DNA from: Streptomyces marispadix
Lineage (GTDB): Bacteria; Actinomycetota; Actinomycetes; Streptomycetales; Streptomycetaceae
Length of the DNA: 64,000 nt
Direction of reading: 5' to 3'
Assembly (NCBI RefSeq): GCF_022524345.1
Contig: NZ_JAKWJU010000002.1
Coordinates: 248,001 to 312,000, forward strand
Shown: positions 49,596 through 60,894 of the stretch, piece by piece
Layout: each line of letters begins with the position of its first letter
Numbering within the stretch: position 1 is the first letter of the stretch
Notes under the pieces: generated by a model
The model's database searches: none
The model's input: only the letters and a program-made list of their open reading frames with translations
Told to the model about the DNA's origin: nothing
Made by a program: the position numbers and the translations under genes

Positions 49596-49842
49596 CGTGC
49601 TGCCCCTTCCTGCCCGGGAGTTCCACGATCTGCACGAGAATTCCGTGATCTTGGGCCGACCGTAGCAGCGCTGGCGGGGGCAGGGGACGTACTCGATCAC
49701 ACCCGCGAGGGGCGGGTGCGTGACAGTCGGCGGTGCGCCGCCGCCCGAGAGCGCCTCCTGCGGCCGCTTCCACGGTCCTTCACGCAGGCCCCTCCACCTC
49801 CTCCCGCCCGTCACTCGGCGAGGGTCGGGCACCCTGGTGGCC

Positions 49843-50535
49843 ATGGACGACTCCCCCGCGACCGCCGTGATCTTCGACCTCGACGGCACGCTCGTGGACA
49901 GCGAACCGCACTACTACGAGGCGGGCCGGCGGGTGCTCGCCGCGCACGGAGTGACGGACTTCGGCTGGGAGGAGCACACCCGGTTCGTCGGCATCGGCAC
50001 TCGGGAGACGATGGAGACGCTGCGCGCCGAGCACCGGATCGCCGCGCCCGTCGAGCAGTTGCTGGCGGAGAAGAACCGCAGCTATCTGGAGCTGGCCGGG
50101 CGCTCGACGCCGGTCTTCGACGGGATGCGCAGCCTGGTGGAGCGACTGCACGCCGCCGCACACCCGTTGGCGGTGGCATCGGGTTCCTCGCGGGAGGCGA
50201 TCGACGCGGTCCTGGCGGGGTCGGGGCTGGGGGCGCTGCTGCCCGTGAGGGTATCGGCGGAGGAGGTCGCGCACGGCAAGCCGGAGCCGGACGTCTTCCT
50301 GGAGGCGGCACGGCGTCTGGGCCGGTCCCCGGGGGACTGCGTGGTGGTGGAGGACGCACCGCCCGGCGCGGAGGCGGCACGCCGTGCGGGCATGCGCTGT
50401 GTGGCCGTGCCGTATGTACGGGGTGCGGAGACGGATGAGGGGTTCGCCTCGGCGGGGCTGCTCTTCGCGGGCGGACAGGACGAGTTCGACGCAGGGCGTG
50501 CGTATGCCTGGATCACGGGCGCAGGCGCGAGCTGA
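49843..50535 (+). CDS. HAD phosphatase, beta-phosphoglucomutase-like
   Basis: 230 residues. HAD motif I FDLDGTLVDSEPHYY, motif II AVASGSSR, motif III Lys in AHGKPEPDVFLEAARRLG and motif IV VVVEDAPPGAEAARRAG. The helical cap is of the small C1 type. It removes phosphate from a sugar phosphate or similar metabolite. Divergent from the lactonase gene by 247 bases that show no other gene. Confidence 0.93.
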   Translation: MDDSPATAVIFDLDGTLVDSEPHYYEAGRRVLAAHGVTDFGWEEHTRFVGIGTRETMETLRAEHRIAAPVEQLLAEKNRSYLELAGRSTPVFDGMRSLVERLHAAAHPLAVASGSSREAIDAVLAGSGLGALLPVRVSAEEVAHGKPEPDVFLEAARRLGRSPGDCVVVEDAPPGAEAARRAGMRCVAVPYVRGAETDEGFASAGLLFAGGQDEFDAGRAYAWITGAGAS

Positions 50536-50618: not shown

Positions 50619-51827
50619 TCAGCCTCCCGGCAGCGCTGCGCGCAGCAGCTCCGGCGCCGACTCCCATGTCACTTCCATGACCTGGGAAGCCCTCTCCTCG
50701 CCCACGCAAGCGGCGGCCTTCGCCGCGAGTTCGGCGCCGGTGGCCGGGCGCCGCGGGTGGCCCTGGGGCAACTCCAGGGCGGCCTCGGCGAGTTCGCCGT
50801 CCGCGCGTTCCACGACGATGCGGGTCTCGCCTCCCGTCAGATCCTCTCCGCCGTCGGGCACGACACGTACCTCCGTACGCTCCAGCAGGCGCCGCACCTC
50901 GGGGCGGGACGCAGCGGCGTCGGTGAAGTCGTCCATGCCGGGGAAGCCGTCGAGGAGCGCGGTCGCGACGGCGTACTCCATGCTGAACTTCGCCTCCAGT
51001 CCCGTACGGGGCCGGTGGTGGATCAGCGGCTGCATGCCCGCCTCTGGCGTGGTGACCGTGATGCGCGCGATGTCCTCGGTGCCGCCCGGGTCGCCCCCGT
51101 CGCCGAGGAGCGGCAGCAGACGTGCCGCGCTGATGGGCCGCTGCATCGCGTAGCAGCAGGGGTGGAGCTTCACGGCCAGTCCGTCCGGGACGGCGGGCCC
51201 GGCCGTGTCCGGCTCCCGTGCGCCGCCCACGAGGGCGAACCAGGCGTCCAGCGCGGCCGGTTCGGCGGTGGCGCCCGCCGCGGCGAGGCGCGCCGCCCGT
51301 ACCCCGGCCTCGGCTGCGGAACCCACCTGAAGGGACTTCCCCGAAGTGCCGAAGGCACGCTGCACGCCTCCCGCTCCGGGCACGGCGAGCGCCATGGCGC
51401 GCCTGAGCCCGTCCGTGTCCAGGCCGAGGGCGATGCCGGCGGCGATCGCGGCGGCGGGGGCGCCCGCGGTGCAGGTGGTGTGCCAGCCGCTGCTGTAGTG
51501 GCTCCAGCCCAGTGCCGTACCGAGCCGCGCCATGACTCCCGCGCCCGCCAGATAGGCACGCTCTCCACCTCCGCACGCGAGGGCCGCGCTGACGCAAACG
51601 ACGCTGATGTGGGAGGTCGACGGCAGATGGACGTCGTCGAAGTCCAGTACGTGGCCCGTGGCGGCCCAGCGCAGCGGCTCCGGCAGCCCGGCCGTCATGC
51701 GGGCGACCGGGTCGCCGGCGGCGGCGAGGGTGACGGCGACGGTGTCGGCCAGCGCTGTGCGGGCGAGTTCACGGTCGGCGTCGCCCGGGTCCAGTGCGGC
51801 GGCCCAGTCTGCGAGATCCGCGATCAT
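50619..51827 (-). CDS. MmgE/PrpD family protein of the C5-dicarboxylate operon
   Basis: 402 residues. Family marks are HVLDFDDVHLPSTSHIS, AMALAVPGAGGVQRAFGT, KLHPCCYAMQRPISAARLL and FSMEYAVATALLDG. The superfamily contains 2-methylcitrate dehydratase and cis-aconitate decarboxylase (itaconate-forming) as well as uncharacterised relatives. It is the last gene of the TRAP/CitE operon, with ATG 51827 overlapping the dctM stop as ATGA. In the operon it may interconvert C5/C6 acids or isomerise the substrate before CoA activation; this is not known. Confidence 0.9.
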   Translation of the reverse strand: MIADLADWAAALDPGDADRELARTALADTVAVTLAAAGDPVARMTAGLPEPLRWAATGHVLDFDDVHLPSTSHISVVCVSAALACGGGERAYLAGAGVMARLGTALGWSHYSSGWHTTCTAGAPAAAIAAGIALGLDTDGLRRAMALAVPGAGGVQRAFGTSGKSLQVGSAAEAGVRAARLAAAGATAEPAALDAWFALVGGAREPDTAGPAVPDGLAVKLHPCCYAMQRPISAARLLPLLGDGGDPGGTEDIARITVTTPEAGMQPLIHHRPRTGLEAKFSMEYAVATALLDGFPGMDDFTDAAASRPEVRRLLERTEVRVVPDGGEDLTGGETRIVVERADGELAEAALELPQGHPRRPATGAELAAKAAACVGEERASQVMEVTWESAPELLRAALPGG

Positions 51828-53131
51828 GTCACCAACCCCGGCAGCCAGGTGGCGAGTTCGGGTACGGCGGTGACGAGCGCCAGCATGCCGGCCTCGATGG
51901 CCAGATACGGCAGGATGCCGCGGAAGATGTCGGCGAGGTCCAGTTCGGGCACCACGGACTTCATGGTGTAGAGGTTCAGCCCGACGGGTGGCGTGATCAC
52001 CGCCATCTCCAGGTTGACCACCAGCAGCACCCCGAACCACAGCGGATCGAAGCCGAGACCTTCGATCGCGGGAACCAGGATCGGCGTCACGACGAGCAGC
52101 AGCGAGGCGGCGTCGACGAGGCAGCCGAGGACGATGAGCACCAGCATCATCACCGCGACGACCAGGTACGGCGAAGTGTCCAGTCCTACGACGAAGTTGG
52201 AGACGGCGTCGGGGACCCGCGCGACCACCAGCATCTGTGTGAAGACGAACGCGGCGCCGACGATCGCGAGGATCGACGCGGTGACGTGGGCCGTCGAGAT
52301 GAAGATCGTCCGCAGGTTCGCCCAGCCCAGCTTCCGGTAGACCCATCCCGTGACGCCGAACGCCGCGAGCGCGCCGACGGCCGCGGCCTCGGTGGGGGTG
52401 GCGAAGCCGGTGTAGATGGAGCCGAGCACGAGGACGATCAGGGCCAGCGCGGGCGAGATCCTCACCAGCGCGGAAAGGCGCTGCCCCCAGGTGAAGTGCT
52501 CGGCCACCACCGGTGCGTTGGCCGGGGCCGTCTTCGCCCGCACCACCACGTAGACGATCATGAACGCGGCGAGCAGCAGCCCCGGGATGAGGCCCCCGGC
52601 GAAGAGTTCGGCGATACTCACGCCCGTCACCGACGAGTACAGGATGAACATCAGGCTCGGCGGGATGAGCATGGCCAGCGCGCCCGAGGCGGCGACGGTG
52701 CCGCTGGCGAACGCAGGGCGGTAGCCGCGGGCCAGCATCTCCGGTACGGCCATGCGGCCGATGATCGCGACGGAGGAGATGCTGACGCCGGACATGGCGC
52801 CGAAGACCGTGGAGGAGCCGATGGCGGAGGCTCCCAGTCCGCCGGGTATCCGGTTGAACCAGCGGTACGCGGCGCCGAACAGGTCGCGGCCCAGGCCGCT
52901 GACCGCGAGCACCTCGCCGAGAAGGATGTAGAGCGGCGCGGCCACCAGCGCGTAGTTCTGTAGCTGCGCGACCAGTGACAGCGGCGTCAACTCCACGCCG
53001 GACAGGCCGCCGAGGCCGATGAGCCCGGCGATGCCGGAGACGGCGAGCGCCACGAAGATGGGTGTGCGCAGGGCGATGAGCAACAGCAGCAGTACGACCG
53101 CGAGCGCGGCGACACCGGCGTCGGAAATCAT
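51824..53131 (-). CDS. dctM: TRAP transporter large permease DctM
   Basis: 435 residues, about twelve membrane segments. Typical TRAP-M landmarks are ALRTPIFVALAVSGIAGLIG, NYALVAAPLYILLGEVLAVSG, GSSTVFGAMSGVSISSVAIIG, AMLIPPSLMFILYSSVTGVS, GFATPTEAAAVGALAAF and NLEMAVITPPVGLNLYTMK. It forms the sodium-driven substrate channel with DctQ. ATGA overlaps join it to dctQ before and the PrpD-like gene after. Confidence 0.97.
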   Translation of the reverse strand: MISDAGVAALAVVLLLLLIALRTPIFVALAVSGIAGLIGLGGLSGVELTPLSLVAQLQNYALVAAPLYILLGEVLAVSGLGRDLFGAAYRWFNRIPGGLGASAIGSSTVFGAMSGVSISSVAIIGRMAVPEMLARGYRPAFASGTVAASGALAMLIPPSLMFILYSSVTGVSIAELFAGGLIPGLLLAAFMIVYVVVRAKTAPANAPVVAEHFTWGQRLSALVRISPALALIVLVLGSIYTGFATPTEAAAVGALAAFGVTGWVYRKLGWANLRTIFISTAHVTASILAIVGAAFVFTQMLVVARVPDAVSNFVVGLDTSPYLVVAVMMLVLIVLGCLVDAASLLLVVTPILVPAIEGLGFDPLWFGVLLVVNLEMAVITPPVGLNLYTMKSVVPELDLADIFRGILPYLAIEAGMLALVTAVPELATWLPGLVT

Positions 53132-53832
53132 GAGCGGGTCTCTCCTTCTCCGGTGCCGGAGTCGGCGGCGGGGCCGTTGCCGCCACCGGGGCCGGCGCGG
53201 CGGTCGGTGCTGTCGGCGTGTGTGGACTGGCTTGCGGCGGGCGGCACTTGGGACGTACCGGCCTTCCTGGAGGGGTGGGCGCCGGACGGGTCCGCGCCGG
53301 ACGGCGGTGACGTCGCCGCGCCGCCCTCCACCACGGCGGCCGCTCCGTCGTCCCAGCCTCCCGGGGGGAAGAGCACGGCCACGACGGCGAGGAGCACGCC
53401 GCTGAGGAACAGCACCGCGTCCGGCACCCACAGGGGAATGCTGAAGGTGCCGGAGCCGGTGAGGCCCCCGGCGAGCGCGACCGTCATCGAGCGGTACGCG
53501 GTCACGGCGAGCACCAGGCCGAGGAACGCGGTCGCGGCGGCGGTCACCACGTCGGCGGCCCGGCGCGCCCCGGCCGGAAGGGCACGGTGGACCAGGTCCA
53601 TCGAGATGTGCTGCCCCTTGGCGTAGAAGTAGGGGATCGCCAGCGACGTGGCCACGAGGACACCGGCGGCATTCAGCGGGTAGGCCCAGTCCGTCGGTGC
53701 GGAGAAGGTGAAGCGGACGACGACGTCGTAGGTGATGGTCAGCATCATCAGCCCGACGACGGCCATGGCGACGACGGCCAGCGCCATCGCGCAGGCCAGC
53801 ACGTATTTGCGTATCGAGTTCAGCGTGCTCAT
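53128..53832 (-). CDS. dctQ: TRAP transporter small permease DctQ with long C-terminal tail
   Basis: 234 residues. The first 160 give the four-helix TRAP-Q fold (YVLACAMALAVVAMAVVGLMM, TDWAYPLNAAGVLVATSLAI, QHISMDLV, VPDAVLFLSGVLLAVVAVLF). From about residue 162 there is a disordered Gly/Ser/Ala/Pro-rich cytoplasmic tail of roughly 70 residues, not usual for the family. It follows dctP by ten bases and overlaps dctM. Confidence 0.94.
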   Translation of the reverse strand: MSTLNSIRKYVLACAMALAVVAMAVVGLMMLTITYDVVVRFTFSAPTDWAYPLNAAGVLVATSLAIPYFYAKGQHISMDLVHRALPAGARRAADVVTAAATAFLGLVLAVTAYRSMTVALAGGLTGSGTFSIPLWVPDAVLFLSGVLLAVVAVLFPPGGWDDGAAAVVEGGAATSPPSGADPSGAHPSRKAGTSQVPPAASQSTHADSTDRRAGPGGGNGPAADSGTGEGETRS

Positions 53833-53842
53833 GCCGGGCCCC

Positions 53843-54874
53843 TCATGCCTTGCGGATGGATTCGACGGCCTGGTCGGCCGTGCGGGCGCCGAGGCGCTGC
53901 CGCCAGGCCGCGTGCACGGGCCGGATCGCCTTGCGGAAGGCCGCCATCTCCGATTCGCCCGGCTCGATCAACTGCACTCCCGCGGCACGGACCTTGGGGA
54001 GGTAGTCCTTCGTGTGCACCTTCACCATGTGGGCGGTGCCGTCCCGGTAGAGGGTCCTTCCGGCCTCGTCCAGGGCCCGGCGGACGGACGGGTGCTGCTG
54101 CTCGTACCAGTCGCTGCGGCAGTAGGCGTCGACGGTGTAGGCGCCGAAGTGGCCTGCCGTGCCGTACTTGACGATCTTCTGTAGGTCGCGGGAGACGACC
54201 GTGCCGATGTAGCTGACGAGACCGTCGATGGTGTTGCGCTCCAGCGCCTGGTAGACCTCGGCGGACCCCATGGTGACGGGTGCTCCGCCGAGGGCCTTGA
54301 CCGTCTCGCCCTCGATCTCGCCCGCGACGCGCAGCCGCAGCCCTCGTACGTCCTCGGGCCTGCGGATGGGCCTGTCGACCGTCCAGAGGTACTCGAACGT
54401 GGTGGGCATGCCGCCGAGGATGCGCACGCCCTTCGGTGCGAGGTTCTTGTTGATCAACTCGTGCTGCGCGCGCCCCGGTTCGATGGCGCGGCGCAGCTTG
54501 CCGTAGTCCTCGGTGATGAAGGGCAGCTCCATCGCGCCGAGCACCGGGTACGTGGAGGAGACGTAGGAGCTGGTCTGGAAGATGACGTCGGCGACTCCCG
54601 ACAGCAGTCCGGGCAGGAGCTGTTCGGCGCCGAGCAGGGCGCCGGAGTCGTAGAGGTCCGGCGCGAGACGTCCGCCGCTGCGCCGTGCGGCGACCTTGTC
54701 GAACATCTCGATGCCGGGGTAGAGATCGCCGTAGGAGGACGGCAGATAGGTCGCCACCCTCGATTTGCGCCGCGTCCCCGCGTCCGCCGGGGCGCACGCC
54801 GAGGCCGCCGCCGCGGCCAGGCCGAGGCCCGCGGCGGACAGGAAGCCGCGCCGTCCGATCGCTTTCGTGTTCAT
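53843..54874 (-). CDS. dctP: TRAP substrate-binding protein DctP (Tat lipoprotein)
   Basis: 343 residues. The N-terminus combines a twin arginine (GRRGFLSAAG) with a lipobox (ASAC, Cys about 27), so it should be a Tat-exported lipoprotein outside the membrane. Family features are LYPGIEMFDKVAARRSGGR, ELPFITEDYGKLRRAIEP, RPEDVRGLRLRVAGE and MGSAEVYQALERNTIDGLVSY, whose Arg usually binds the ligand carboxylate. It captures an organic acid for DctQM. ATG 54874 overlaps the LLM gene's stop as ATGA. Confidence 0.95.
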   Translation of the reverse strand: MNTKAIGRRGFLSAAGLGLAAAAASACAPADAGTRRKSRVATYLPSSYGDLYPGIEMFDKVAARRSGGRLAPDLYDSGALLGAEQLLPGLLSGVADVIFQTSSYVSSTYPVLGAMELPFITEDYGKLRRAIEPGRAQHELINKNLAPKGVRILGGMPTTFEYLWTVDRPIRRPEDVRGLRLRVAGEIEGETVKALGGAPVTMGSAEVYQALERNTIDGLVSYIGTVVSRDLQKIVKYGTAGHFGAYTVDAYCRSDWYEQQHPSVRRALDEAGRTLYRDGTAHMVKVHTKDYLPKVRAAGVQLIEPGESEMAAFRKAIRPVHAAWRQRLGARTADQAVESIRKA

Positions 54875-55884
54875 GGGAGTACCTCGTCCCTCAGGCGTTT
54901 CAGGCTGGCCATGACCTTCTCCTGCGGCATCCCGGGCCATTGCGGGCGGAGGAGGATGTTCTCCGGTGCCACGTGGTCGATGAGATCGGTGAGTCGAGCA
55001 CGGCAGGAGGCGGGCCCGCCGAGGATGAAGCGGCCCTGCCGCAGCTTGTCGAACTCCGCGTCGAAGCTCTGCGAGGCGGGCAGCACCCGGTCCTGCCCCC
55101 AGGCGCGGTAGGCGGCGTACTTGACGGTCATCGCGGCTCTCACGTCCTCGACGGCGGCCTCGTCGCTCTCGCCGACGTAGACCTCCTGGAGGACCTGTAC
55201 GGGGGCGGTATCGCGGCCGAAGTCACGGCAGGCGGCGCGGTAGTGGCCCACCTGCCGGTGCAGATAGTCCCGGTCGACGTGTGCGGCGGCGGCGAGCCAC
55301 GGCAGGCCCATCCGTGCGGTGCGGCGCAGCGCCCCGTCGGTGTGACCGGCGAGCCAGAGCGGCGGGTGCGGGCGCTGCACGGGCCGCAGCACGGGACGTA
55401 CGGCCTCCAGCTTGACGGCGTCGCTGTGGAAGGTCACCTCGTCCTCGGTCCACAGCCGCTTTACGAGGTCGAGGTTGTCGAGGAAGCGGCGCAGCCTTGC
55501 GTCGCGGGGGACGCCGAAGGCGTCGAACTCCGTGTCGCGGTAGCCCAGTCCGGCTCCGACGGTGAGGCGGCCGCCGCTGATGATGTCGAGCGTGGCCAGT
55601 TCCTCGGCGAGGTCGACGGGGTTCTGGAGCGCCATGAGCGTGATGGCCGTGCCGATCCGCATGCTGCCGGACTCGGGGACGATGCGGGAGAGCACCGCGA
55701 GCGGATGGAGGTACTGGAAGGGGTCGGCGAGGTAGTGCTGGGTGGCCCACACCGAGGAGAAGCCGGCGTCGCGGGCGAAGCGGACCTGCTCCACCTGTTC
55801 GGCGAAGCGCGCCACCACGTCGTCGTCGGAGGTGAACTGGCTGCACAGCACCAGCCCGTATCCGGGCTCCGGGGCTGAAGTCAT
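54871..55884 (-). CDS. LLM class (luciferase-like) flavin-dependent oxidoreductase
   Basis: 337 residues, bacterial-luciferase fold with SSVWATQHYLADPFQYLHPL, LDIISGGRLTVGAGLGYRDTEFDAFGV and HPPLWLAGHTDGALRRTARMG. It uses FMN or F420. I choose ATG 55884 because AAGGAGG ends 11 bases upstream; the GTG at 55896 would sit on the ribosome binding site itself. It is coupled to dctP and lies in the middle of the dicarboxylate operon, where the Pseudomonas itaconate locus (from memory) has no such gene. Its role may be oxidation of a substrate variant. Confidence 0.92.
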   Translation of the reverse strand: MTSAPEPGYGLVLCSQFTSDDDVVARFAEQVEQVRFARDAGFSSVWATQHYLADPFQYLHPLAVLSRIVPESGSMRIGTAITLMALQNPVDLAEELATLDIISGGRLTVGAGLGYRDTEFDAFGVPRDARLRRFLDNLDLVKRLWTEDEVTFHSDAVKLEAVRPVLRPVQRPHPPLWLAGHTDGALRRTARMGLPWLAAAAHVDRDYLHRQVGHYRAACRDFGRDTAPVQVLQEVYVGESDEAAVEDVRAAMTVKYAAYRAWGQDRVLPASQSFDAEFDKLRQGRFILGGPASCRARLTDLIDHVAPENILLRPQWPGMPQEKVMASLKRLRDEVLP

Positions 55885-56017
55885 GGGCGGGGGCACCTCC
55901 TTCGGTGACTGGGTCCTGGGCGACGTGGGGTCTTCGCCGACGTGCGATCGGTCCTGACTTGGGTGACGTGGGAGACGTGGGATCGGTGCGGGGTCGGGGC
56001 CCGGCCTGCCGGCCGGT
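55885..56017. other. Internal operon gap with GACGTGGG repeats
   Basis: The only sizeable gap in the nine-gene operon (133 bases). It has exact GACGTGGG octamers at 55922, 55965 and 55974 and a variant at 55939. It could hold an internal promoter or regulator site separating enzyme genes from the LLM/transport genes; no clear -35/-10 seen. Confidence 0.5.
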
Positions 56018-57181
56018 TCAGAACGAGCGCGGCATCTTCAGTACGTGCTGGCCGATGTGGGCGAGGATGAGGTTCGTAGAGACGGGGGCGACCTGGTACA
56101 GCCGTGTCTCGCGGAATTTGCGTTCGATGTCGTACTCGGCGGTGAAGCCGTAGCCGCCGTGGGTCTGAAGGGCCGCGTTGGCCGCCTCCCAGGAGGCGTC
56201 GGCGGCGAGCAGCTTCGCCATGTTGGCCTCGGCGCCGCAGGGTTCGCCCGCGTCGAAGAGGTCGCAGGCTCGCCACCGCATGAGGTCGGCGGCCTCGACG
56301 TTCACATGTGCGCGTGCGATGGGGAACTGGACGCCCTGGTTCTGGCCGATGGGACGCCCGAAGACCACGCGTTCACTGGCGTACTCGGCGGCGCGCTCGA
56401 CGAACCACCGCCCGTCGCCTATGCATTCGGAGGCGATGAGGATGCGTTCGGCGTTCATGCCGTCGAGGACGTAGCGGAATCCGCGGCCCTCCTCGCCGAT
56501 GAGGCTGTCGGCGGGCACGTGGACGTGGTCGAAGAAGACCTCGTTCGTCTCGTGGTTGACCATGGTGCGTATCGGGCGCAGATCGACGCCTTCCGCTTCC
56601 CGCAGGTCGATCAGGAAGAGCGACATGCCGTCGGACTTCTTCGCCGCCTCGTCCCTCGGTGTCGTACGGGCCAGCAGCAGCATCAGATCGGAGTGCTGCA
56701 CGCGGGAGATGAAGACCTTCTGGCCGTTGACGACATAGCCGTCGGCGGTGCGTTCCGCGGTGGTGCGGATGCTGGTGGTGTCGGTGCCCGCGGTGGGCTC
56801 GGTGACGCCGAACGCCTGGAGGCGCAGTTCGCCTGAGGCGATGGCGGGCAGATAGCGGCGCTTCTGCTCCTCGGTGCCGTGCCTGAGCACCGACCCCATG
56901 GTGTAGAGCTGGGCGTGCACGGGCCCGGCGTTGCCGCCGTTGGCGTTGATGCCCTCCAGGATGACGGAGGCGTCGCCGAGGCCGAGGCCCAGTCCGCCGA
57001 ACTCCTCCGGTACGAGTGCGCCGAGGCAGCCCGTGCCGGTGAGGGCGTCGACGAACTCCTCGGGGTAGCGGCGGGCCGCGTCGACCTCCTGCCAGTAGGA
57101 GTCCGGGTAGTCGGCGCAGATGCGGTCGACCAACTGGCGCAGATCGCGGCGGAGTTCGCCTGCCGCGGCCGGTTCCGTCAC
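56018..57181 (-). CDS. Acyl-CoA dehydrogenase of the C5-dicarboxylate operon
   Basis: 387 residues, full ACAD length. Signatures are LVPEEFGGLGLGLGDASVIL, LQAFGVTEPTAGTDTTSIRTTAE (FAD/substrate), NGQKVFISRVQHSDLML, ERILIASECIGDGRWFVERA and C-terminal QTHGGYGFTAEYDIERKFRE. It oxidises an acyl-CoA and passes electrons to ETF. In this operon a methylsuccinyl-CoA- or itaconyl-CoA-related step is plausible. GTG 57181 overlaps the MaoC stop as GTGA. The etfBA genes at 29-31 kb could serve it. Confidence 0.95.
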   Translation of the reverse strand: MTEPAAAGELRRDLRQLVDRICADYPDSYWQEVDAARRYPEEFVDALTGTGCLGALVPEEFGGLGLGLGDASVILEGINANGGNAGPVHAQLYTMGSVLRHGTEEQKRRYLPAIASGELRLQAFGVTEPTAGTDTTSIRTTAERTADGYVVNGQKVFISRVQHSDLMLLLARTTPRDEAAKKSDGMSLFLIDLREAEGVDLRPIRTMVNHETNEVFFDHVHVPADSLIGEEGRGFRYVLDGMNAERILIASECIGDGRWFVERAAEYASERVVFGRPIGQNQGVQFPIARAHVNVEAADLMRWRACDLFDAGEPCGAEANMAKLLAADASWEAANAALQTHGGYGFTAEYDIERKFRETRLYQVAPVSTNLILAHIGQHVLKMPRSF

Positions 57182-57696
57182 TGCCCCTCCCCTCCGTGCC
57201 GCCCGCCGCTGCGGTCCTCGTGCCGCGGCCCGTGGCCGCGCTTGTAGACCAGCAGCGTCCTGGTGAACTCGATGACGGTCTCCCCGGTCTGCTTATGACC
57301 TGTGGTGTGCACGGTGACCACGCCCAGGCCCGGCCGCGAGGCGGACTCCCGTGCGGCTACGACGCTGGAGCGTGAGTGGATCGTGTCGCCCTCGAAGACC
57401 GGGCTGGGCAGGGTGATCCCGTCCCAGCCGAGGTTGGCGAAGACGTTCTGCGAGACGTCGGTGACGCTCTGGCCCGCTACGAGGGCCAGGGTCAGGGCGG
57501 AGTTGACGAGCGGCTTGCCGAACTCGGTGCGCCGCGCGTACTCGTGGTCGAAGTGGAGCGGCGCGGTGTTCTGGGTGAGCAGCGTGAACCAGATGTTGTC
57601 CGTCGTGGTCACGGTGCGGCCCAGCGGGTGCTCGAAGACGTCGCCGACCGCGAAGTCCTCGTAGAAGCGGCCCTGCCAGCCGGTGTGGGTCGTCAT
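57178..57696 (-). CDS. MaoC family hydratase (candidate itaconyl-CoA hydratase)
   Basis: 172 residues, one hot-dog domain. The hydratase motif reads LTQNTAPLHFDHEYARRTEFG; the usual catalytic Asp-x-N-P-x-H arrangement is changed so that Gln/Asn precede the conserved His. This variant is the one I associate with mesaconyl/itaconyl-type CoA hydratases. GKPLVNSALTLALVAGQSV and LPSPVFEGDTIHSRSSV follow. It would add water to itaconyl-CoA (or mesaconyl-CoA) to give citramalyl-CoA. ATG 57696 overlaps the CoA-transferase stop as ATGA. Confidence 0.9.
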   Translation of the reverse strand: MTTHTGWQGRFYEDFAVGDVFEHPLGRTVTTTDNIWFTLLTQNTAPLHFDHEYARRTEFGKPLVNSALTLALVAGQSVTDVSQNVFANLGWDGITLPSPVFEGDTIHSRSSVVAARESASRPGLGVVTVHTTGHKQTGETVIEFTRTLLVYKRGHGPRHEDRSGGRHGGEGQ

Positions 57697-58958
57697 GACT
57701 CTCCCTCGGCGGTGTGCGGTTCGGCGAGTTCTGCGAGTACGGAGGCGGTGTGCGCGCCGAGGCCGGGCAGCGCGCCGCCCTCGGCGCTCCGGCCGCCGGG
57801 TGCGCCGGGCGGGCGGAGGGTGCGTACGGTGCCGCCGGGGGTCTCGGTGTCCATCCAGCGCCCGTCGCGGGCGAGTTCGGGGTGCGAGGGCAGATCCGCG
57901 AGCGCCGTCATCCGTCCCCAGGCGATCCCTGCGTCGTCGAGGCGCTCGGTGAGCGTCCCGGAGGGGTACGCGGCGAAAAGGGCGGCGAGTTCGGCGTCGA
58001 GGGCGGAACGGTGCGCGACGCGCTCGGAGTTGGAGCCGAAGCGGCGGTCCTGGGCGAGCGGCGCCGCGTCCAGCACTTCGGTGCACAGCCGCGCCCATTC
58101 ACGCTGGTTCTGCACGGCGATCAGCAGCGAGGCGCCGTCGGCCGCGGTGAAGGCCCCGTACGGTGCGATCGCCGGGTGCGAGGTCCCCATCGGCACGGGT
58201 GCGTTGCCCGAGTGGAGCGTGTAGTAGAGCGGGTGCGCCATCCACTCGGTGAGCGCGTCGAAGAGCGAGACATGGACGGGCAGCGCCTCTCCGGTCGTGT
58301 CGCGGTGCCGTATGGAGGCGAGCACGCCGCTGAAGGCGTAGCTGCCCGCGGCTATGTCGGCGATGGAGATGCCGGTCTTGGCCGGCGCCGAGGGAGTGCC
58401 GGTCAGCGACATCAGACCCGTCTCGGCCTGTACGAGCGCGTCGTAGGCCTTCTTCGCGGCCAGCGGCCCGTCGGGCGCGTAGCCCGAGATGTGGCAGACG
58501 ATCAGCGTGGGGTGGCGGCGGCGCAGTGCGGCGGCGTCGAGGCCCAGGCGTGCGAGGGCGCCGGGCGCGAGATTGGCCACGACGGCGTCGGCCCGCTCCA
58601 GCAGCCGATGCAGGTCGTCCACCGCCGCCGGGTCCTTGAGGTCGAGCTGCACGGACTCCTTGCCGCGGTTGAGCCAGAGGAACGCGCTGGAAGTGCCGTG
58701 CACCACGTGGTCGTAGCCGCGTGCGAAGTCGCCGCCGTCGGGCCGCTCGACCTTGATCACGCGGGCACCGAGGTCGGCGAGCTGACGGGTGGCGAAGGGG
58801 GCGGCGACGGCCTGTTCGACGGCGACGACGGTGACGTCGTCCAGCGGGAGCCGGGCGGGCGGCTGCTGCCCGTCGGGCCCGGCGGGGCGGGCGGCGCGGG
58901 CGTCCGTGCGGGGCCGGGAGTCCGGGGCGTTCCCGTTCGCCGCGCTGTGGCTGTTCAT
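57693..58958 (-). CDS. Class III CoA-transferase (candidate itaconate CoA-transferase)
   Basis: 421 residues from ATG 58958; a TTG at 58976 overlapping the citE-like stop would add six residues. CaiB/BaiF fold: VTVVAVEQAVAAPFATRQLADLGARVIKVERP, DFARGYDHVVHGTSSAFLWLNRGKESVQLDL and the catalytic Asp in KKAYDALVQAETGLMSLTG. It moves CoA from a donor such as succinyl-CoA onto a carboxylic acid. Between the CitE-type lyase and the MaoC gene it is the expected activation step for a C5-dicarboxylate. The first 38 residues are a disordered extra. Confidence 0.92.
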   Translation of the reverse strand: MNSHSAANGNAPDSRPRTDARAARPAGPDGQQPPARLPLDDVTVVAVEQAVAAPFATRQLADLGARVIKVERPDGGDFARGYDHVVHGTSSAFLWLNRGKESVQLDLKDPAAVDDLHRLLERADAVVANLAPGALARLGLDAAALRRRHPTLIVCHISGYAPDGPLAAKKAYDALVQAETGLMSLTGTPSAPAKTGISIADIAAGSYAFSGVLASIRHRDTTGEALPVHVSLFDALTEWMAHPLYYTLHSGNAPVPMGTSHPAIAPYGAFTAADGASLLIAVQNQREWARLCTEVLDAAPLAQDRRFGSNSERVAHRSALDAELAALFAAYPSGTLTERLDDAGIAWGRMTALADLPSHPELARDGRWMDTETPGGTVRTLRPPGAPGGRSAEGGALPGLGAHTASVLAELAEPHTAEGES

Positions 58959-58972
58959 CGGGGGCAGGCTGC

Positions 58973-59986
58973 TCAACGGACCGCCTCCTCCGCGTGCCGC
59001 GTTTCCTCCAGGGCGTCCCGGTCCGCTTCGCGCACCAGCGCCTCCGCACGGATCACCACCGGGCGGTCGACGAACGTGCCGTCGCCGAGGCGCACCGCGC
59101 CTGTCCCCCGGTCCTTCGCGTCGTCGTAGGCGGCCAGCACCTCGCGGGCGCGGGCGAGTTCGCTCTCCGTGGGTGCGAACGCCCTTCGTACGGGGGCTAT
59201 TTGGCGGGGATGGAGCACCGCACGCCCGGTGAAGCCGAGTTCGCGCGCCGCGAGCGTGGAGCGTACGAGGCCGTCCTCGTCGTCGAGCGCGGCGTGCGGG
59301 CCGTCGAGGGGACCCGGCAGCCCGGCGGCGCGTACGGCGAGCACCGACTGCGAGCGTGCGTGCAGCAGTTCGCGCCCCTCGGGGCTCGGGCGCACGCCGA
59401 GTTCCGCGGCGAGGTCGAGGGTGCCGAACAGCAGCGTCAGCACACGCGTACTTGCGGAGGCGATCGCCCCCGCGGCGAGCACACCGGCAGCGCTCTCCAC
59501 CACGGGCAGCAACGACAGCCTGCCCACGGGGAGTCGGCCCTCCCCCGCGTCGCCCGCCGCGGTATCCGCCACGGCGGTCCCGGCCGTTTTTGCCCCGGCC
59601 GCTGCCCCGGCGGCCGTCTCGGCGGCCGTCAGCCTCTCCTCCAGCTCCCCGATCTGCTCCGCCGAGCGGGCCTTGGGCACGATCAGCCCGTCCAGCGGGG
59701 CCTTCCCCAGCAGGGACGAGACGGCTGCGAGGTCCGCATCGGCCTCGGCGGTGTCCAGCGCGTTGACACGGATGTAGAGGCCGGGCCGCCGGTGCGGCCG
59801 CACCGGATCGACGGGACCGAGCCCGGTGAGGACATCGGCGGTCAGAGCGCGTGCCGCTTCCTTGGCCGTCGCGTCGACGGCGTCCTCGAAGTCCACGGCG
59901 ACGGCGTCGGCGCCGCTCGCCAGGGCCTTCCCGATCCGGTCCGGACGGTCCCCGGGGACGAACAGCAGCGTCCGTCCGACCTCCAT
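58973..59986 (-). CDS. CitE-like lyase (candidate citramalyl-CoA lyase)
   Basis: 337 residues. HpcH/HpaI-citrate lyase beta fold: LFVPGDRPDRIGKALASGADAVAVDFEDAV (DFEDAV for the usual DLEDAV), YIRVNALDT, LIVPKARS, LLPVVESAAGVLAAGAI (metal Glu), LLFGTLDLAAELGV and GFTGRAVLHPRQI. An Ala/Thr/Gly-rich insert (about 125-155) is unusual. It would split citramalyl-CoA to acetyl-CoA and pyruvate, or a related malyl-CoA. ATG 59986 has AAGGAG upstream and is the first gene of the nine-gene operon. Confidence 0.92.
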   Translation of the reverse strand: MEVGRTLLFVPGDRPDRIGKALASGADAVAVDFEDAVDATAKEAARALTADVLTGLGPVDPVRPHRRPGLYIRVNALDTAEADADLAAVSSLLGKAPLDGLIVPKARSAEQIGELEERLTAAETAAGAAAGAKTAGTAVADTAAGDAGEGRLPVGRLSLLPVVESAAGVLAAGAIASASTRVLTLLFGTLDLAAELGVRPSPEGRELLHARSQSVLAVRAAGLPGPLDGPHAALDDEDGLVRSTLAARELGFTGRAVLHPRQIAPVRRAFAPTESELARAREVLAAYDDAKDRGTGAVRLGDGTFVDRPVVIRAEALVREADRDALEETRHAEEAVR

Positions 59987-59995
59987 GAGCGCTCC

Positions 59996-60023
59996 TTGTT
60001 CCGTGAGGTGGAACACGTACCAT
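59996..60023 (+). promoter_or_regulatory. Promoter of the iclR-type gene
   Basis: -35 TTGTTC (59996-60001), 16-base spacer, -10 TACCAT (60018-60023). The -10 lies inside the palindrome at 60016-60034, so IclR binding would block it. Confidence 0.6.
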
Positions 60024-60034
60024 CTGGCGGTACG
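60016..60034. promoter_or_regulatory. IclR-type operator in the divergent promoter region
   Basis: CGTACC and GGTACG arms around seven bases (ATCTGGC). It overlaps the regulator's -10. It sits downstream of a perfect TTGACA (-35 on the minus strand, 60068-60073) whose -10 (TCAGGG/CAGGGT) is weak, so the catabolic operon probably needs help or relief from the regulator. Confidence 0.7.
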
Positions 60035-60126
60035 ATCGCACTTACCCTGATGAGGGCGCTCACGTACTGTCAAGGGGCGTGCAGCCGACATCCGGAACGG
60101 AACCAGGCCGAGGGGGACGACCATCG

Positions 60127-60894
60127 ATGCCCACCGCAGGCGGCGGGATGCGCGCGGTCATCACAACTCTGCGCGTTCTGGAGACAGTTGCTGAGCTGCA
60201 ACCCGTCGGGGTCACGGCGATCGCGAGAGCGACCGCGATCCCCAAGTCCTCGGTGCACCGCTGTCTGCTCACACTCCGCGAAGCGGAATGGCTCACCACG
60301 TCCAGCACCGACGGAACGCGCTGGGTGCTGACCGGCCGCGCGCTCTCCGTGGGAATGCGCGCCTCCGTCGAGCTGGGGCTGCGTGAGGCCGCGCTGCCGA
60401 CGATGCGCGAGCTTCGGGACGAGACCCACGAGACCATCCACCTCGTCGGCTACGGCACCGATCACGACCTGGTGGTGATCGACCGGATGGACAGCGACGA
60501 ACCGGTGCGCACATGGGTGCGCCTGGGCGCGCGGGTGCCGCTGCACGCCAGTTGCAGCGGCAGGGCCGTACTCGCCCGCCTCACGGACCCGGAGGTGGAG
60601 CGGCTGCTCGACGGCGAACTGGAGCGCTTCTCGGAGACGACCCCCGCGAATCTGGAGGCCGTGCTGGAGGACCTGGCTCGGGTGCGCGAGAGGGGATACG
60701 CGACGAACGACTGCGCCTGGCGCCCCGGCGTCGGAGCGGTCGGCGCGGCACTCGTGGACCCGCGAGGACGGCCCGTGGGTGCGCTGGCGGTATCGGTACC
60801 GGTGCAGCGGTACGACGAGCAACGGGCCCTGCGACTGGGGCCGTTGGCGGCCGACGCGGCCCGGCGCATCAGCACGGCACTCCCGCCTGCCTGA
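60127..60894 (+). CDS. IclR family transcriptional regulator
   Basis: 255 residues from ATG 60127, which has GAGGGGGA upstream; GTG 60079 would have no proper ribosome binding site. N-terminal winged helix (VLETVAELQPVGVTAIARATAIPKSSVHRCLLTL in order, about 15-50) and C-terminal IclR effector domain with HLVGYGTDHDLVVIDRM, PLHASCSGRAVLARL, RGYATNDCAWRPGVGAVGAALVD. Divergent from the CitE-led operon, it is the evident regulator, probably sensing itaconate, a CoA-free C5 acid or a product such as pyruvate. Confidence 0.95.
   Translation: MPTAGGGMRAVITTLRVLETVAELQPVGVTAIARATAIPKSSVHRCLLTLREAEWLTTSSTDGTRWVLTGRALSVGMRASVELGLREAALPTMRELRDETHETIHLVGYGTDHDLVVIDRMDSDEPVRTWVRLGARVPLHASCSGRAVLARLTDPEVERLLDGELERFSETTPANLEAVLEDLARVRERGYATNDCAWRPGVGAVGAALVDPRGRPVGALAVSVPVQRYDEQRALRLGPLAADAARRISTALPPA

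Follow-up and report, generated by a model that had tools for sequence, protein, structure and literature searches.

The window analysed here, 64 kb (64,000 nucleotides) of Streptomyces marispadix DNA (contig NZ_JAKWJU010000002.1, positions 248,001 to 312,000), contains a nine-gene operon on the minus strand (50619-59986) and a divergent gene for an IclR-family regulator. Its likely function is catabolic, with the IclR protein as the probable regulator, and its core probably turns methylsuccinate, and itaconate, into acetyl-CoA and pyruvate.

Operon organization and core enzymes

Starting from the regulator side, the operon encodes a CitE-family CoA-ester lyase (58973-59986, 337 aa, PF03328), a class III CoA-transferase of the Ict clade (57693-58958, 421 aa, PF02515), a single-domain RipB-like MaoC hydratase (57178-57696, 172 aa), and an acyl-CoA dehydrogenase (ACAD) of the methylsuccinyl-C4-CoA dehydrogenase clade (56018-57181, 387 aa). 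These are followed by a luciferase-like (LLM) flavin monooxygenase (54871-55884, 337 aa, PF00296) and a TRAP importer composed of the solute-binding protein (SBP) DctP (53843-54874, 343 aa, PF03480), the small permease DctQ (53128-53832, 234 aa, PF04290), and the large permease DctM (51824-53131, 435 aa, PF06808, with TIGR00786 above its cut-off). The last gene encodes a short-form MmgE/PrpD protein (50619-51827, 402 aa), a putative substituted-succinate epimerase. The IclR-family regulator (60121-60894, 257 aa, PF01614 and PF09339) lies on the plus strand. All ten proteins match Pfam families above the gathering score, including the LLM protein (180 bits to PF00296) and MmgE/PrpD, which contains both the N and C domains. 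The open reading frame positions and Pfam calls bear out the first-pass annotation, which had described nine minus-strand genes of these families with a divergent IclR gene. Its count of seven tight junctions out of eight agrees with the measured distances: from CitE to MmgE they are a gap of 14 bases, two overlaps of 4, a gap of 133, an overlap of 4, a gap of 10, and two overlaps of 4. Only the 133-base ACAD-LLM junction departs from the tight spacing (4-base overlap or 10-14 base gap). Start codons are predicted; in two related loci (L120 and L173) the CitE and CoA-transferase genes are called with a 4-base overlap, which may also be the true arrangement in the window. The G+C content of the operon stretch is 71.6%, compared with 72.5% for the window.

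The operon is conserved. A MaoC-seeded scan of genome contigs gave at least 507 confirmed stretches, the best 80 of which were taken as loci; eight of these contain all nine genes in the window order, and the IclR gene is divergent in every one. They belong to Streptomyces (L120, L121, L122, and L173), Pseudonocardia (L123, L125, and L181), and Saccharomonospora (L124). Several genes in L123 and L125 and the LLM gene in L124 are fragmented, through either draft errors or real breaks. The recurrence of the nine-gene order with a divergent IclR gene argues that the operon is not a chance arrangement. In addition, a Rhodococcus plasmid carries the five-gene core, again with the IclR gene divergent. 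The operon is also rare. With the LLM protein as marker at E 1e-90, matches are found in 3 of 392 genomes of the genus, namely the window's own and those of the L120 and L173 strains. The class sample yields LLM matches at E 1e-60, with 36-40% identity, in 3 of 393 other genomes, and a short-form MmgE at 59-62% identity in three genomes. Across the four Streptomyces loci, CitE (60-73% identity) is more variable than MaoC or ACAD (89-94%).

The reference proteins of Pseudomonas aeruginosa were taken from NZ_CP131792. On this record ACAD, MmgE, and TRAP genes stand together with an adjoining LysR gene, in line with the first-pass annotation. The entire itaconate/methylsuccinate locus of this record (L200) is located on an 847-kb sequence labelled as a conjugative plasmid. 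In the proposed blastp comparison with this cluster, the core enzymes behave differently: the CoA-transferase is 49% identical to PaIct and CitE 36% to the lyase PaCcl, but MaoC has no match, nor do LLM and DctQ. The identities of the other proteins are 68% (ACAD), 34% (DctM), 29% (MmgE), and 24% (DctP).

The ACAD and the CoA-transferase provide the closest links to proven enzymes. The 68% identity between the ACAD and PaMcd extends over 376 residues. In trees of author-chosen rows from the fetched loci, the window ACAD and PaMcd share one clade (26 of 42 rows, support 100/97), and the window CoA-transferase shares one with PaIct (30 of 40 rows, support 100/100). All 26 ACADs of the PaMcd clade carry an AP[VI]S motif, which is found in one of the 16 outside it (L040), while eight of those 16 carry EGT there. 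We take this site to be the usual position of the catalytic Glu. In the stretch upstream of the motif, a Glu-Cys pair is present in 24/26 ACADs of the clade versus 2/16 outside. Moreover, the CoA-transferase, ACAD, and lyase of the window resemble the P. aeruginosa enzymes in their NCBIfam score profiles. PaMcd is a biochemically proven, C4-specific methylsuccinyl-C4-CoA dehydrogenase that converts both methylsuccinyl-CoA enantiomers into mesaconyl-C4-CoA, and the reference of the PaIct clade is a proven itaconate/(R)-methylsuccinate CoA-transferase (PMC12290011). Engineered P. putida requires the Mcd gene for growth on methylsuccinate, not on itaconate (PMC9875883). Because the window ACAD groups with an enzyme both proven and needed on methylsuccinate, this acid, rather than itaconate alone, is the likely core substrate.

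Proposed pathway and alternative readings

The analysis establishes gene content, synteny, clades, residues, and palindrome conservation; we infer the reactions, as well as the roles of the TRAP and LLM proteins. The short-form MmgE would epimerise the free acid, and the class III CoA-transferase would use CoA from succinyl-CoA to form (R)-methylsuccinyl-C4-CoA or itaconyl-CoA. The RipB-like MaoC would then hydrate the dehydrogenated ester, or isomerise and hydrate itaconyl-CoA, yielding (S)-citramalyl-CoA. Finally, the CitE-type lyase, a predicted (S)-citramalyl-CoA lyase, would release acetyl-CoA and pyruvate. The best PDB sequence match of this lyase is 8khl (120.6 bits), whose sequence is 99% that of PaCcl, and it scores 150.7 bits against NCBIfam RipC_Ccl (PaCcl itself 157.7). 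The best NCBIfam family of the window MaoC is RipB/Ich (RipB_Ich), whereas PaIch matches no NCBIfam family. The window protein is not of the PaIch type: at E 1e-3, blastp does not match it to PaIch, which has 275 aa. The itaconate pathway claimed at first, with CoA transfer, hydration, and citramalyl-CoA cleavage, is partly supported: the ACAD and CoA-transferase clades back a C5-branched-dicarboxylate route, but the hydratase is not of the P. aeruginosa type. Several loci (L038, L146, L147, L159, and L190), including those of Rubrobacter and Sulfobacillus, combine a PaMsi-type isomerase with a RipB-like MaoC. Residues 114-158 of the window CitE (window 59513-59647) form an Ala-rich segment that does not align to PaCcl and is about 36 residues longer than PaCcl there.

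The catalytic set proposed for the methylsuccinate isomerase Msi comprises His88, Glu91, His102, Tyr148, His152, Lys202, and Lys266 (PMC12290011). The window MmgE retains it as HDHYHKK, with Asp replacing Glu91 as in iminodisuccinate epimerase. A joint clade of the window MmgE and the proven isomerase (PA0881) was rejected (p-AU 4.75e-9); the two are in separate clades, the groups having been named after the tree was seen.

Several observations weigh against the methylsuccinate/itaconate pathway. The MaoC protein scores 193 bits against RipB_Ich, below the cut-off of 340 (P. caribensis RipB reaches 356.1), and the lyase likewise falls below the RipC cut-off of 375. The lyase tree, with deep forks that lack resolution, leaves the window protein unjoined to PaCcl at 36% identity. 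The MmgE protein belongs to a separate short-form lineage outside the proven methylsuccinate isomerase clade; since the complete seven-residue catalytic set, with Tyr, is present in 31 of 35 aligned MmgE rows (Asp/Glu aside), it is weakly diagnostic and does not prove the isomerase reaction. The PaIct clade also holds CoA-transferases paired with other ACADs (L101, L102, and L110), and membership in it therefore does not fix the substrate. The MaoC protein also matches PF19315 (80.6 bits), mesaconyl-CoA hydratase, for which the C1 ester is a possible substrate. Finally, the SBP pocket is unlike that of the itaconate SBP IctP, and the signature Arg, R169, is the sole carboxylate contact kept.

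The PF19315 match, together with one to the beta-methylmalyl-CoA dehydratase 8hgn (130.9 bits), would fit a C1-ester route. Here the CoA-transferase would form the C1 ester, MaoC would be a mesaconyl-C1-CoA hydratase, and CitE, as a beta-methylmalyl-CoA lyase, would yield glyoxylate and propionyl-CoA. We regard this route as the least likely of the alternatives, because the ACAD groups with a C4-specific dehydrogenase (PMC12290011) and PaCcl tops the PDB matches of the lyase, over malyl/methylmalyl-CoA lyases (98-100 bits). It is improbable, too, that the same chemistry is applied to a larger substituted succinate, such as an alkyl- or amino-succinate. In L101 and L102, too, short-form MmgEs have Ict-clade CoA-transferases as neighbours, but the adjoining ACADs are of a quite different kind. 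The MmgE/CoA-transferase pair may therefore act on more than one acid, and the best fold match of the window MmgE is iminodisuccinate epimerase (2hp3), another MmgE/PrpD family member. However, PA0881 has the same best fold match (PMC9875883), and the ACAD of this operon is of the methylsuccinyl-CoA type. An itaconate operon proper, with a TRAP system importing itaconate like IctPQM and with ACAD and MmgE as side enzymes for methylsuccinate, is somewhat easier to envisage, though still unlikely. The gene content equals the itaconate locus of P. aeruginosa, save for the LLM gene replacing the VOC gene and for the regulator, and itaconate needs just a CoA-transferase, a hydratase, and a lyase (PMC9875883). 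The importer argues against it. The SBP is 24% identical to IctP and lacks the contacts K41, K94, N209, N213, and Y236 in all three MAFFT modes; at this low identity (~24%), contact positions besides R169 are approximate. Two other actinomycete SBPs (L102:4793-5836 and L118:4905-5933), in contrast, keep all six contacts; positions 91 and 234 hold Ala and Ile, respectively. These are ~24% identical to the window SBP, lie in loci with Ict-clade CoA-transferases, and are candidate parts of C4/C5-dicarboxylate transporters, unlike the window SBP. The initial description of the uptake genes as an itaconate/C5-dicarboxylate transporter is therefore unsupported.

Within the preferred methylsuccinate/itaconate pathway, the importer and the monooxygenase may serve a different compound. 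Of 17 related loci, 10 have both the LLM gene and this TRAP system and seven have neither, which suggests that another precursor is imported. We tentatively propose, as a possibility short of an even chance, that the TRAP system imports an acid other than itaconate or methylsuccinate, that the LLM protein oxidises it to methylsuccinate, for example by aldehyde oxidation or ring-ketone opening, and that the short-form MmgE, recruited separately, epimerises the product for the core. If true, this would be a natural oxidative route into methylsuccinate; the single source named in PMC12290011 is itaconate reduction. At its N-terminus, DctP has an RR motif and a cysteine that may belong to a lipobox. 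There is no flavin reductase gene within the operon, and the LLM cofactor may be FMNH2 or F420. Another actinomycete cluster (L207:7832-15147, G453) encodes MmgE, MaoC, CoA-transferase, ACAD, CitE, and an LLM protein 39% identical to that of the window; its CoA-transferase and ACAD are only 32-33% identical to their window counterparts. On a haloarchaeal plasmid (L040:3868-20444), genes for TcuA, PrpF, MaoC, CoA-transferase, and CitE adjoin those for LLM, nitrile hydratase, and MmgE.

Divergent regulator and intergenic elements

The gap between the IclR and CitE genes contains two tandem palindromes, GTTCC-N7-GGAAC (palindrome 2, 59998-60014) and GTACC-N7-GGTAC (palindrome 1, 60017-60033), at which the IclR protein may act. 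They provide a candidate IclR-family operator. A TTGACA element on the minus strand (60068-60073) is the candidate -35 box of the operon promoter; it is conserved in 8 of the 9 aligned clusters with this operon, and L121 has TTGACG. The pattern GTWCCN7GGWAC has two matches in the 64 kb, both in this gap, and 1 of 100 shuffles reaches two; the expectation of 0.11 is flattering, as the pattern was drawn from these very sites. The Streptomyces loci retain the palindromes, with matching arm changes (GTACC/GGTAC, GTTCC/GGAAC, and GTGCC/GGCAC), and Pseudonocardia, Saccharomonospora, and the Rhodococcus plasmid have looser versions. They are not conserved in L130 in the alignment of relatives. Beyond the other end of the operon, a plus-strand reading frame (window 49720-50535), a HAD-type hydrolase by motif alone, converges on it; in L120, too, the operon is followed by a homologous stretch.

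Comparison with known itaconate and methylsuccinate clusters

The operon implies that some actinomycetes may degrade methylsuccinate and itaconate by means of another hydratase and an isomerase of a different lineage. Methylsuccinate isomerase is reported to be 96.2% in Pseudomonadota, and the natural origin of methylsuccinate is described as poorly known (PMC12290011). Given the different lineage, counts made with a pseudomonad-isomerase profile may miss actinomycetes. Of greatest interest are what the TRAP system imports and which reaction the LLM protein carries out, and the conserved importer and monooxygenase module offers a direct, testable handle on the origin of methylsuccinate.

The closest known system is the P. 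aeruginosa PA0878-PA0886 / C. necator cluster (Ict, Ich, Ccl, Mcd, Msi, and IctPQM), with which the window operon shares the CoA-transferase and dehydrogenase clades, a CitE-family lyase, an MmgE/PrpD gene and, in the P. aeruginosa form, TRAP genes. It differs in its hydratase, its MmgE lineage, its SBP pocket, and its IclR instead of LysR regulator; moreover, it has an LLM gene and lacks the VOC lactonase gene of the pseudomonad cluster. This LLM protein is 25% identical or less to RslO1 and bacterial luciferases. The three-gene, Yersinia-type rip itaconate cluster resembles the operon in its RipB-like single-domain MaoC (193 bits), but neither the window MaoC nor the lyase reaches its cut-off (RipB and RipC, respectively), and the window CoA-transferase is of class III. 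The Yersinia itaconate CoA-transferase belongs to another class. The operon is real and conserved, and most likely serves to degrade methylsuccinate and itaconate in the manner of the pseudomonad cluster, although its hydratase, isomerase, SBP, and regulator set it apart from that cluster.

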